The translations under genes were made by a program, and so were the position numbers. Positions 14,076 through 17,738 of a DNA stretch of 64,000 bases are shown here, in pieces; positions within the stretch are counted from its first letter, which is position 1, and each line of letters starts with the position of its first letter. Source of the DNA: Candidatus Didemnitutus sp. (GTDB lineage: Bacteria > Verrucomicrobiota > Verrucomicrobiia > Opitutales > Opitutaceae); NCBI GenBank assembly GCA_017991595.1, contig JAGOQJ010000009.1, forward strand, positions 1 through 64,000. Direction: 5' to 3'. The notes beneath the pieces are model-generated. The model was not told where the DNA came from. It saw nothing but the letters and a program-made list of their open reading frames with translations, and searched no databases.

Positions 14076-14204
14076 GCGGCGATTAATCGCGGGCGCGCGC
14101 GGGGTGTCTAGCGCGAATTGGACCGGGAGCGGAAGTCGGGCCCGCCCGCGCAGCGCCGTCCGGCTTGCGCCCGCGGCGGGATGCTGCACCGTGGAACGCT
14201 CCGC

Positions 14205-17200
14205 ATGTCCGATGCCGCCAACGCCCACCGCGTGAAGATCACCGGAGTCTGTCCGCCGGCCCGCGCCTTCGCCCTGGCCCGGCTAGCGGCGGCGCACCCC
14301 GCGCCGGTCTGGTTGGTGGTCGTCGAGGAGCCGCGCGAACTCGATCCGCTCGCGGAAGACGTCGCCCTGCTCGCGAGCCAGCGCGACGCCGGCTCAACCG
14401 CGCCGGCCCTGCAGGTGCTGGTGTTTCCGGAATCCCACGCCGACAGCCGGGAGATGCGCGAAGCCTTCCACGCCGCCAGCGACCGGCTCGCTGTGCTCAG
14501 CAAGCTCCGTGGCCGACTGCACGCCACGAGCGCGCCCGACCCCGTCATGATCCTGACCACGCCGGGCGCTTTGCTGCAGGCCGTGCCGCCGCCTGCGGAC
14601 TTCTCCGAGCGGGAAATCGTGCTCCGCAAGGGCGACGAGCGCCCTTTCCAAGGCCTGCTCGAGCTGCTGCGCCAATTCGACTACGACAGCGAAGCGGTCT
14701 GCGAAGCGCCCGGCCAATACGCCGTGCGCGGCGGCATCGTCGACGTTTACCCGATCACCGCGCATCAGCCTTACCGCCTGGATTTCTTCGGCGACACGTT
14801 GGAGGACATCCGCACGCTCGATCCGGTCACGCAACGTTCGGGCGAATCCGTCGCCACCGTCACGCTCACCGCCGCGCCGCAGATCCACGCGGCGGCCGGC
14901 CGCGCCTCGCTACTAGATTACCTCGGTCCCGCCGCTCACGCGGTGGTGCTCGAACCGAAGGCTATCGAGGAAGCCTTCGACCTGCTCGGCGGCGCCGCCG
15001 TCGACGCAGGTAGGGCGAGTTCTCCGAACGAGCCGCGCACTCGGCGGTCGCTCGCATCGGACAACGGCTCGTTCGGAGAACTCACCCTACCGCCGACTCT
15101 CGGCGCACTCGCGGGGCGCGCGGTGCGTTTGTTCGGTGTCAGCGATCTCGATCTGACTTCCGCGCTCTTCGACGGCACCGGCGACGAGCAGACTTGGGAT
15201 ACGGAGTCGTTGCGGCATCACCGTGCGTTCCCCGAGGAGAACCAGCTCGCCCACGAACGCCTTCAAGCCGAGGACGCGGCCCGTCGGGACTTCTTCCTCC
15301 AAGTGCTGGCCTGGCAGCAGGCCGGTTACGCAGTCGAATTCTTCATCTCCAAGGAAGGCGAGGAGCAGCGCACGCGCGAACTCCTCGCGGAAGACGCTGA
15401 ACTCAAGAAATTGAAACCGCGCTACGTCCGCGGCGCGGTCAACGAAGGCTTCCGCATCACGTTCGGTAGGGCGAATTCTCCGAACGAGCCGTCCTCCGCT
15501 CCCGGAAACGCACCCGCGCGCGGCTCGTTCGGAGAACTCGCCCTACCTCGTGCTGCGCGCGGCTACGTCGCCGTGACCGAGACGGAAATCTTCGGCCGCA
15601 AGCGTCAGCGCCGCACCACCAGCAAGCGCGCGCTCGCCACGCCTTCGGCCGTCGACCAGCTGCTCGATTTCTCCGAGCTGGTCGAAGGCGACTTCGTCGT
15701 GCACCTCCAGCACGGCGTCGCCGTCTACCGCGGGCTGACGAAGATCGAATCCCGCGACGGCGTGCGCGAGGTGATTTCCCTCGAATTCGACGACAAGGTC
15801 ACGCTGCACGTGCCGCTGCAGGAGTCGCACCTCATCAGCCGTTACGTCGGTCTGTCGAAGGTGAAGCCGCAGCTCGGCCGCGTCGGCTCCGGCCGTTGGG
15901 AAAAAATCCGCGCCGCCGCCGAGCGCGCCACGCTCGATCTCGCCGCCGAGCTGCTGCAAATCCAGGCAAAGCGAGAGGCGCAGCCGGGCCACGCGTTCGC
16001 CGAGGACAACACCTGGCAGAAGGAATTCGAGGCGGCGTTCCCCTACACGGAAACGCCCGATCAGGCGAAAGCCATCGTCGAGGCGAAAGCTGACATGGAG
16101 AAGACGCGCCCGATGGATCGACTCGTCTGCGGTGACGTCGGCTTCGGCAAGACGGAGGTCGCGATCCGCGCCGCCTTCAAGGCCGTGATGGGCGGCAAGC
16201 AGGTCGCGGTGCTCGTGCCCACGACCGTGCTCGCGCAGCAGCACCTCAACACCTTTCGCGAGCGCATGGCCGGTTACCCGGTCGCGGTCGAGATGGTCTC
16301 GCGTTTCCGCTCGCGCAAGGAGCAGACGCAGATCCTCGCCGCGGTGACGACCGGCAAGATCGACATCCTCATCGGCACGCACCGGCTCGTGCAGAGCGAC
16401 GTGCATTTCAAGGACCTCGGGCTCGTCATCATCGACGAGGAGCAGCGCTTCGGCGTGAAGCACAAGGAGGTCTTCAAGCGCTGGCGGGCGCACGTCGACA
16501 TGCTCTCGATGAGCGCCACGCCGATCCCGCGCACGCTCTACCTCGCGCTCACCGGCGCGCGCGACCTCAGCACGATCGAGACGGCGCCGGTCAACCGCTT
16601 GCCGATCCAGACGATCGTGAAGAGCTACGACGAGAAACTCGTCGTCGAGGCGATCCAGCACGAGACGCGGCGCGGCGGACAGGTTTTCTATCTGCACAAC
16701 CGGGTGATGAGCATCGACCTCGTCGCGTCGCGCCTGCGCGAGTTGCTGCCCAAGCTCCGCATCGGCGTCGGCCACGGCAAGATGGATGAAAACGAACTCG
16801 AGCGCGTGATGACCGACTTCGTGGCGGGCCACTACGACGTGCTCGTCTGCACGACCATCATCGAGAGCGGCCTCGATATCCCGAACTGCAACACGATCAT
16901 CATCGAGGGCGCGGACCGCTTCGGCCTCTCGCAGCTCTACCAGCTCCGCGGCCGCGTCGGCCGTTTCAAGCACCAGGCCTACGCCTACCTCCTGCTGCAC
17001 CGCCACGCCCGCGTGATGGACCTCGCGCGCCAGCGCTTGAGCGCCCTCCGCCAGCACAACCAGCTCGGCGCCGGCTTCCGCATCGCCATGCGCGACCTCG
17101 AGCTGCGCGGCGCGGGCAACCTCCTCGGCGCCGAGCAGAGCGGTCACATCGTCGGCGTTGGGTTCGAGCTGTATTGCCAGTTACTCAAGCAAAGCGTCGC

Positions 17201-17738
17201 CCGCCTCAAGGGCGAGAAGCACGCCGCCGCCGTCCGCGCGGGCGTGAAGCTCGACTTCGTCTTCGTCGGCGAGGGCGCGGATAGCACCACCACTGTCCGA
17301 ACCGAGGCGACCGACAGCTACACGGCGCTCAAGCAAGCCGAGCGCGCGGCCCGCGGCGAAGACCGGATGGTGCAGGCCCGCCTGCCAGCGCGCTACATCG
17401 GAGAGACGCGCCTGCGCATCGACTTCTACCGGCGGCTGGCGATGGCCGAGAGTCCCGCCGCGATCAAGGAGATCGAGGCGGAACTGAAGGACCGGTTCGG
17501 CAAGTTCGGCGACGAGGTGCGGGCCCTCCTCCTGATCACCGAGATCCGCGTCCGGGCGGAACAAAAGGGTCTCCTGTCCGTCGAAACGGATTCCGGCCGG
17601 CTGAAGTGCCTGCGCCACAGCGGGCGCCGCGATGATTTCATCCAGTTCAACAACCGCTTTCCCCGCTTGACCGCCCCCTCCCCCCTCGCAAAGTTGCGCG
17701 AAATACTCGTTTTTCTACAGAATCTCCCGACTCCATGA
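14205..17738 (+). CDS. mfd: Transcription-repair coupling factor Mfd with two REP-encoded insertions
   Basis: Removes RNA polymerase stalled at lesions and recruits UvrA. The product is about 1177 residues. The N-terminal UvrB-homology part is followed by the RNA-polymerase-interacting domain (FVVHLQHGVAVYRGL). The translocase motors follow with GDVGFGKTEVA, DEEQRFGV, SATPIPRT and QLRGRVGR, and then the C-terminal D7 domain. In-frame palindromic elements add 28-residue peptides at about residues 269-296 and 421-448, both in weakly conserved regions before the RNA-polymerase domain. ATG 14205 is preferred; ATG 14181 and 14118 are in frame. The stop overlaps the next start (ATGA). Confidence 0.95.
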   Translation: MSDAANAHRVKITGVCPPARAFALARLAAAHPAPVWLVVVEEPRELDPLAEDVALLASQRDAGSTAPALQVLVFPESHADSREMREAFHAASDRLAVLSKLRGRLHATSAPDPVMILTTPGALLQAVPPPADFSEREIVLRKGDERPFQGLLELLRQFDYDSEAVCEAPGQYAVRGGIVDVYPITAHQPYRLDFFGDTLEDIRTLDPVTQRSGESVATVTLTAAPQIHAAAGRASLLDYLGPAAHAVVLEPKAIEEAFDLLGGAAVDAGRASSPNEPRTRRSLASDNGSFGELTLPPTLGALAGRAVRLFGVSDLDLTSALFDGTGDEQTWDTESLRHHRAFPEENQLAHERLQAEDAARRDFFLQVLAWQQAGYAVEFFISKEGEEQRTRELLAEDAELKKLKPRYVRGAVNEGFRITFGRANSPNEPSSAPGNAPARGSFGELALPRAARGYVAVTETEIFGRKRQRRTTSKRALATPSAVDQLLDFSELVEGDFVVHLQHGVAVYRGLTKIESRDGVREVISLEFDDKVTLHVPLQESHLISRYVGLSKVKPQLGRVGSGRWEKIRAAAERATLDLAAELLQIQAKREAQPGHAFAEDNTWQKEFEAAFPYTETPDQAKAIVEAKADMEKTRPMDRLVCGDVGFGKTEVAIRAAFKAVMGGKQVAVLVPTTVLAQQHLNTFRERMAGYPVAVEMVSRFRSRKEQTQILAAVTTGKIDILIGTHRLVQSDVHFKDLGLVIIDEEQRFGVKHKEVFKRWRAHVDMLSMSATPIPRTLYLALTGARDLSTIETAPVNRLPIQTIVKSYDEKLVVEAIQHETRRGGQVFYLHNRVMSIDLVASRLRELLPKLRIGVGHGKMDENELERVMTDFVAGHYDVLVCTTIIESGLDIPNCNTIIIEGADRFGLSQLYQLRGRVGRFKHQAYAYLLLHRHARVMDLARQRLSALRQHNQLGAGFRIAMRDLELRGAGNLLGAEQSGHIVGVGFELYCQLLKQSVARLKGEKHAAAVRAGVKLDFVFVGEGADSTTTVRTEATDSYTALKQAERAARGEDRMVQARLPARYIGETRLRIDFYRRLAMAESPAAIKEIEAELKDRFGKFGDEVRALLLITEIRVRAEQKGLLSVETDSGRLKCLRHSGRRDDFIQFNNRFPRLTAPSPLAKLREILVFLQNLPTP
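15009..15091. repeat. REP inverted pair (BIME-like), in frame in mfd, copy 1
   Basis: Two 27-bp arms (15009-15035 and 15065-15091) are reverse complements with one mismatch, around a 29-bp centre. Each arm is itself a GTAG plus hairpin unit: GGCGAGTTC, loop TCC, GAACGAGCC. The frame reads GRASSPNEP at the left and GSFGELTLP at the right. Confidence 0.9.
15465..15547. repeat. REP inverted pair (BIME-like), in frame in mfd, copy 2
   Basis: Same 83-bp length and arm design as copy 1: arms 15465-15491 and 15521-15547, one mismatch, 29-bp centre of different sequence. It starts at the same codon position and reads GRANSPNEP at the left and GSFGELALP at the right. Confidence 0.9.

Follow-up and report, generated by a model that had tools for sequence, protein, structure and literature searches.

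Two palindromic elements lie in frame within the mfd gene of Candidatus Didemnitutus sp., a member of the Opitutaceae, the family to which Opitutus terrae also belongs. We analyzed a window of 64,000 nucleotides (positions 1 to 64,000 of contig JAGOQJ010000009.1, assembly GCA_017991595.1), in which mfd is an intact open reading frame with two candidate starts (Table 1). The domains UvrB_inter, CarD_TRCF_RID, DEAD, Helicase_C and TRCF all score above cut-off in this frame, and the frame runs without interruption across both elements.

Each element is a dimer of GTAG-tagged REPs whose 27-nt arms are 96% complementary and are separated by 29 nt. Even when three mismatches were allowed, the pattern matched only these four arms in the 64 kb, and it matched none in 100 shuffles. 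All four arms carry the GTTC stem or a stem one change away from it. Each element begins on a first codon position, and the two encode closely similar peptides, GRASSPNEP...GSFGELTLP and GRANSPNEP...GSFGELALP, which occupy residues 269-296 and 421-448 counted from the ATG at 14205. A preliminary description of this DNA gave the two inverted pairs, their arm and center lengths, coordinates and peptides exactly, and its reading of them as REP-family pairs sitting in frame inside mfd is supported by our analysis. It also described 83-bp elements encoding 28 residues; the 28 codons stand, but 83 is not divisible by three, and the repeat unit in frame with mfd measures 84 bp.

The complete elements fold strongly as single strands (free energies of -57 and -59.3 kcal/mol, with z scores of -8.5 and -9.5). 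Isolated arms are no more stable than shuffled sequences, with 33/200 and 95/200 shuffles folding equally well. Arm 15009-15035 forms the hairpin expected for a REP arm, and arm 15465-15491 does not.

Table 1. Positions of mfd, its two REP dimers and their parts in the window.
Feature	Coordinates	Strand	Remarks
mfd, transcription-repair coupling factor	14118..17738	+	intact ORF; 1206 aa (TTG 14118) or 1177 aa (ATG 14205); two candidate starts
REP dimer 1, head-to-head GTAG pair	15009..15091	+	with one further base 3', encodes peptide GRASSPNEPRTRRSLASDNGSFGELTLP
Dimer 1, left REP arm	15009..15035	+	GTTC stem subtype
Dimer 1, center (29 bp)	15036..15064	+	
Dimer 1, right REP arm	15065..15091	-	GTTC subtype; differs from the pattern at one base
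REP dimer 2	15465..15547	+	with one further base 3', encodes peptide GRANSPNEPSSAPGNAPARGSFGELALP
Dimer 2, left REP arm	15465..15491	+	ATTC/GAAC; own stem altered at one position
Dimer 2, center (29 bp)	15492..15520	+	
Dimer 2, right REP arm	15521..15547	-	GTTC subtype

The REP family and its candidate transposase

The arms share a common architecture: GTAG, followed by GGC-GA-nnnn-TCC-nnnn-GA-GCC, in which the two n blocks pair. The GTAG tag stands unpaired beside the short palindromic stem (GGTAGGGCGA-nnnn-TCC-nnnn-GAGCCG), and the inner blocks match in most copies listed. Below, G000 denotes the source genome, which is 87% complete, other G numbers denote comparison genomes and L numbers the loci taken from them. 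The preliminary description proposed searching the source genome and its relatives for such arms. With up to two mismatches, we found 38 arms on 12 of the 18 contigs of G000, compared to one for a reversed-pattern control, and at least one match in 15 of 38 genomes (G000 included), several of which have one match only. By hand count, 20 of the 38 arms in G000 lie close together in 10 opposed pairs, GTAG facing outward, and 25 of the 38 have GTTC as the 5' half of the stem. The center sequence of these pairs varies from copy to copy. Among relatives, the inner stems vary on both sides (GTTC, GTCG, ATCC, GTCC, ACCC and GGCG). Hand counts of exact arms gave GTCG/CGAC for 52 of 76 in G007 and 14 of 25 in G001, and GTTC/GAAC for 23 of 35 in G003.

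All eight genomes searched for Y1 transposases contain matches. A Y1_Tnp gene in G007 (27 bits; 190 aa; L355 1020-1589) encodes the stretches PDHLHML and KTEYIRMNP and has GTCG-type REPs on either side; the first of these REPs overlaps the beginning of the gene's reading frame. In G005, GTTC REPs flank a match that scores under the cut-off; in G001, a GTCG REP adjoins a weak match. We infer that a RAYT mobilizes these REP dimers. The 87% complete source genome has three Y1_Tnp matches, with no GTTC-type REP within 1.5 kb on either side of them. Around the weakest of these matches, which is below the cut-off (L033 ~1178-1848; C14 near 186385), we observed a different GTAG repeat, GTAGGGGCGCAGTCTTGCTGCGCCC.

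Occupancy of the two Mfd sites and of other genes

A first search for Mfd matched all 57 genomes of the set, G000 included; the best matches in G029, G030, G036 and G050 are weak and may not be Mfd. Across the family, 144 of 150 genomes (again with G000) match at E 1e-20. We compared 146 Mfd genes or gene pieces; outside this set are G047 and G049, whose genes are split or cut, G084 and G106, which are among the matching genomes, and the six genomes with no match. A palindrome-type insert is present at one or both sites in 24 of the 146 (three of these, G062, G090 and G092, called from one end motif only), and six genomes have inserts at both. Judged by eye, the inserts comprise about nine types. 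GTAG-type arms occur in 9 of 143 testable genes at site 1 and in 13 of 145 at site 2, where 8 of 145 contain other palindromes.

The related Mfd genes, whose comparison the preliminary description had also proposed, either lack the inserts or contain other palindromes in their place. No REP is found at either site in the close relatives G008, G009, G004 and G010, or at site 1 in G001. In G003 (93% identical in the compared piece), site 1 has the same GTTC left arm, immediately before a contig end. GTAG REPs of other subtypes occupy the same places in G007, G005, G002, G006, G059, G069, G102, G110, G117 and G168; other GTAG types are found at site 2 in G001, G005 and G102, and also in G040 and G042; and palindromes lacking the GTAG tag are found in G123, G158, G157, G074, G077, G107, G138 and G110 (site 2). 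We take the repeat in G123 and G158 to resemble the REPs of Pseudomonas. At site 2, G077 (L109) and G107 (L135) have simple repeats, GATTTTC and AAATCCC among them, in long inverted copies. Because other genomes hold different but related elements at the same sites, the arms are unlikely to be an assembly artifact.

Past residue 60, the compared Mfd genes contain 19 strong inverted repeats, 16 of which fall inside the two loops. The two loop regions make up 9% of the scanned codons, and the binomial p for this enrichment is 1e-14, uncorrected for kinship. The other three repeats are at residues 134, 136 and 477, the last of which is still within the site 2 loop region. Residues 134-136 (numbered from 14118) form a third, rarer place with long inverted repeats, seen in L109 (G077) and L043 (G006).

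On a FastTree tree of 143 rows, from which G003, G089 and G132 were left out for missing flanks, family labels set by eye need 8 or more changes at site 1 and 20 or more at site 2. Scoring presence alone gives minima of 8 and 17, with gains and losses counted together. No insertion junction could be fixed to the base in the Mfd or HrpA comparisons because the loops diverge even among near relatives.

Mfd is not the only protein with such inserts. The hrpA gene of the source genome (L200 2752-6954) contains two in-frame REP dimers with 22-bp centers, and G003 has the same subtype at both places. As in Mfd, two HrpA loops hold lineage-specific REPs and are empty in other genomes (G004 and G010). 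The second HrpA loop of G005 (L219) and G002 (L233) seems to contain two successive palindromic repeats of differing types. The view in the preliminary description that two insertions in one essential-type repair gene are unusual is not supported, given this hrpA gene and the double insertions that the main text of PMC3733652 reports in both O. terrae uvrA genes.

Further in-frame REPs in the source genome lie in a gene for an FMN-dependent dehydrogenase (FMN_dh), in one for a protein of the Mur ligase family, where they separate the middle from the C-terminal domain, and in one for a protein with a DUF480 domain, after that domain. Together with mfd and hrpA, these genes account for 12 of 30 arms examined, out of the 38 in the genome. 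This count leaves out ORFs that span an arm but lack a Pfam domain (L001, L004, L016-L019, L021, L022 and L024-L026), for which mostly one spanning frame was tried. L010 and L011 have no spanning ORF of 120 aa; at L003 and L005 a domain is present, but the REP precedes it.

The data do not establish a specificity for repair genes. With 30 loci per gene, Mfd has 7 strong inverted repeats (in 6 loci), the RNA helicase HrpA 8 (in 5 loci), UvrA 1 and RpoB 0, and other kinds of genes are hit in the source genome. Codon-shuffled controls gave no strong inverted repeats. RecG was unusable as a control gene: its model, TIGR00643, exceeded the cut-off in 0 of 57 genomes of the order, compared to 8 of 14 control genomes, and the rows compared were Mfd genes. 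The recG gene may be absent from the order.

Reading phase and predicted loop structure

In the Mfd loops, every one of the 18 recognizable GTAG left arms begins with a whole codon (phase 0). For the GTTC, GTCG, ATCC, GTCC and ACCC subtypes, the frame used encodes GRAxxPxEP and is the most polar of the frames, with a mean hydropathy of -1.7 to -2.1. The second frame is open and reads VGRVLRTS or similar, and the third opens with a stop. Type B of the GTAG arms differs: in the one composite arm that represents it, another frame is more polar than the one used. The frame of the right arm depends on the gene. Identical peptide ends on both strands, which the preliminary description ascribed to the element itself, are tied to the center length and frame in Mfd: the right arm reads GSFGELALP there and ARAENSPY or ARSENSPY in the HrpA of the same genome, where the center is 22 bp. 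The short motif also matches in another phase, with no partner arm, in HrpA (once), UvrA (once) and RpoB (twice); we take these matches to be ordinary codons.

We modeled 600 residues, counted from the ATG at 14205, with AlphaFold2. Both inserts are predicted as low-confidence coil, with block pLDDT values of 35-49, compared to 81-85 for the adjoining elements, in a model built from 14 sequences with a mean pLDDT of 71 and further stretches likewise below 50. Insert 1 lies between H251-269 and H297-305 and insert 2 between E416-419 and E453-458. Among 119 repeat-free Mfd genes, site 2 is the stretch most variable in length, and the variability of site 1 is moderate (ranks 16-47 of 94 windows).

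Origin and persistence of the inserts

We think it probable that GTAG REP pairs entered two tolerant loops of Mfd, were kept there through frame and phase, and that the loops were later refilled, emptied or exchanged. Each element would be a small, non-autonomous, head-to-head REP pair, probably moved by a RAYT-type HUH transposase, that inserted into mfd at one of two flexible loops between secondary-structure elements. Three features would let the inserts persist: a net length that preserves the frame, an arm phase that is free of stops and yields a polar linker (GRAxxPxEP in this REP type), and a loop that accepts extra residues. Over time, individual loops may have been filled, emptied or exchanged, with other lineages placing other types of palindrome at the same spots. 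By this account the inserts are presumably neutral for Mfd, and selection would act as a filter that leaves these sites. The loops thus look like spots that tolerate mobile DNA inside a conserved gene.

In-frame intragenic GTAG REPs were published in 2013 (PMC3733652), and therefore the mfd dimers are a well-documented further example of something already known; what is new is the recurrent filling of the same loops. According to the main text of that paper, over half of the inserts within genes are dimers or groups, 20-30 residues are encoded, such REPs are most numerous in O. terrae (Verrucomicrobia), and many repair genes are tagged. The present elements share the GTAG tag, the head-to-head dimers, the length of the encoded segment, the repair genes and the double insertions. 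The same text reports REPs at one site in Xanthomonas recB and at differing sites in other genes, whereas here two loops are reused family-wide by about nine types of palindrome. It does not name mfd, and among the open-access papers listed by our literature searches no title or abstract opening reports palindromes in mfd. Our addition is a family-wide series at two Mfd loops and a parallel series at two HrpA loops. The two series show where a pair of large, conserved proteins naturally accept approximately 10-60 additional residues, and their filled and empty alleles allow REP gain, loss and subtype exchange to be dated.

The preliminary description compared the elements to Rickettsia palindromic elements. 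The likeness holds for the mode of working, in that palindromic repeats supply in-frame segments to unrelated proteins (here the products of mfd, hrpA and the FMN_dh, Mur ligase and DUF480 genes). It fails for the organisms and for the tag: R. conorii elements are reported to end in CGTC, and a dedicated transposase is apparently missing for CGTC repeats (main text of PMC3733652), unlike the GTAG ends found here. REPINs or BIMEs, the RAYT-linked REP doublets (PMC8266576; see also PMC3116915), likewise have opposed REPs and the GTAG tag, and the Y1 transposase gene between REPs in G007 fits them. However, the centers here differ from copy to copy, and their mobility is putative. Long inverted repeats also occur in protein-coding genes of nematomorph mitochondria, but these are animal mitochondrial genes and the opening of the abstract mentions no link to REPs (PMC6649704).

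A possible but less likely history is a single old insertion per site within the genus, with the arms rewritten in place to the dominant REP subtype of each genome by conversion or transposase-driven replacement. The Mfd arms do match the common subtype of their genomes (by hand count, GTTC 25/38 in G000 and GTCG/CGAC 52/76 in G007), and the center is 29 nt long at each of the two sites in G000 and in G007, as it is at site 2 of G002, although maintenance of the frame alone limits the possible lengths. Sequence comparison of the centers, from which a length filter excluded one 21-nt center, gave mixed results. At site 2, G007 and G002 are clearly common by descent (24/29), and G000 is identical to them at 14/29 and 15/29 positions, respectively (shuffle p 0.03 and 0.02); at site 1, the centers of G000 and G007 are unrelated (7/29, p 0.77). 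The HrpA centers of G000 and G001 agree at 13/22 positions (p 0.003), compared to 8-10/22 for five other G000 centers, but G000 and G002 agree at only 9/22 (p 0.15) and a non-homologous pair reached 15/29 (p 0.008). Moreover, G008 and G001 group with G007 yet are empty or have another REP type, and the very different palindromes of other genera require separate events. The stronger proposal, that the Mfd and HrpA loops are recurrent docking sites at which arms are continually swapped for the dominant subtype, seems to us unlikely. If true, in-place replacement would mean that a bacterial transposase system rewrites coding sequence and that the loops evolve in concert with the repeats of the genome, a test case of transposase-driven concerted evolution within genes.

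An adaptive or regulatory role, through altered Mfd activity (e.g., a mutator effect) or hairpins that tune mfd expression, appears improbable. The strong folding of the whole dimers would suit it, as would a repair translocase and an RNA helicase being the two most-hit of the four genes compared. The main text of PMC3733652, noting its many tagged repair genes, proposes altered activity and speculates on a mutator effect, and it also weighs neutrality in loops. The dehydrogenase, Mur ligase and DUF480 genes of the same genome are hit as well, however, and the inserts vary among relatives, with most of the 146 Mfd genes lacking them. Least probable of all is that a transposase target sequence, and not the tolerance of the protein, chose the sites: place and codon phase do recur, but untagged palindromes (e.g., in G123, G158, G074, G077, G107 and G138) occupy the same site 2 loop, and the flanking DNA is unlike between genera.
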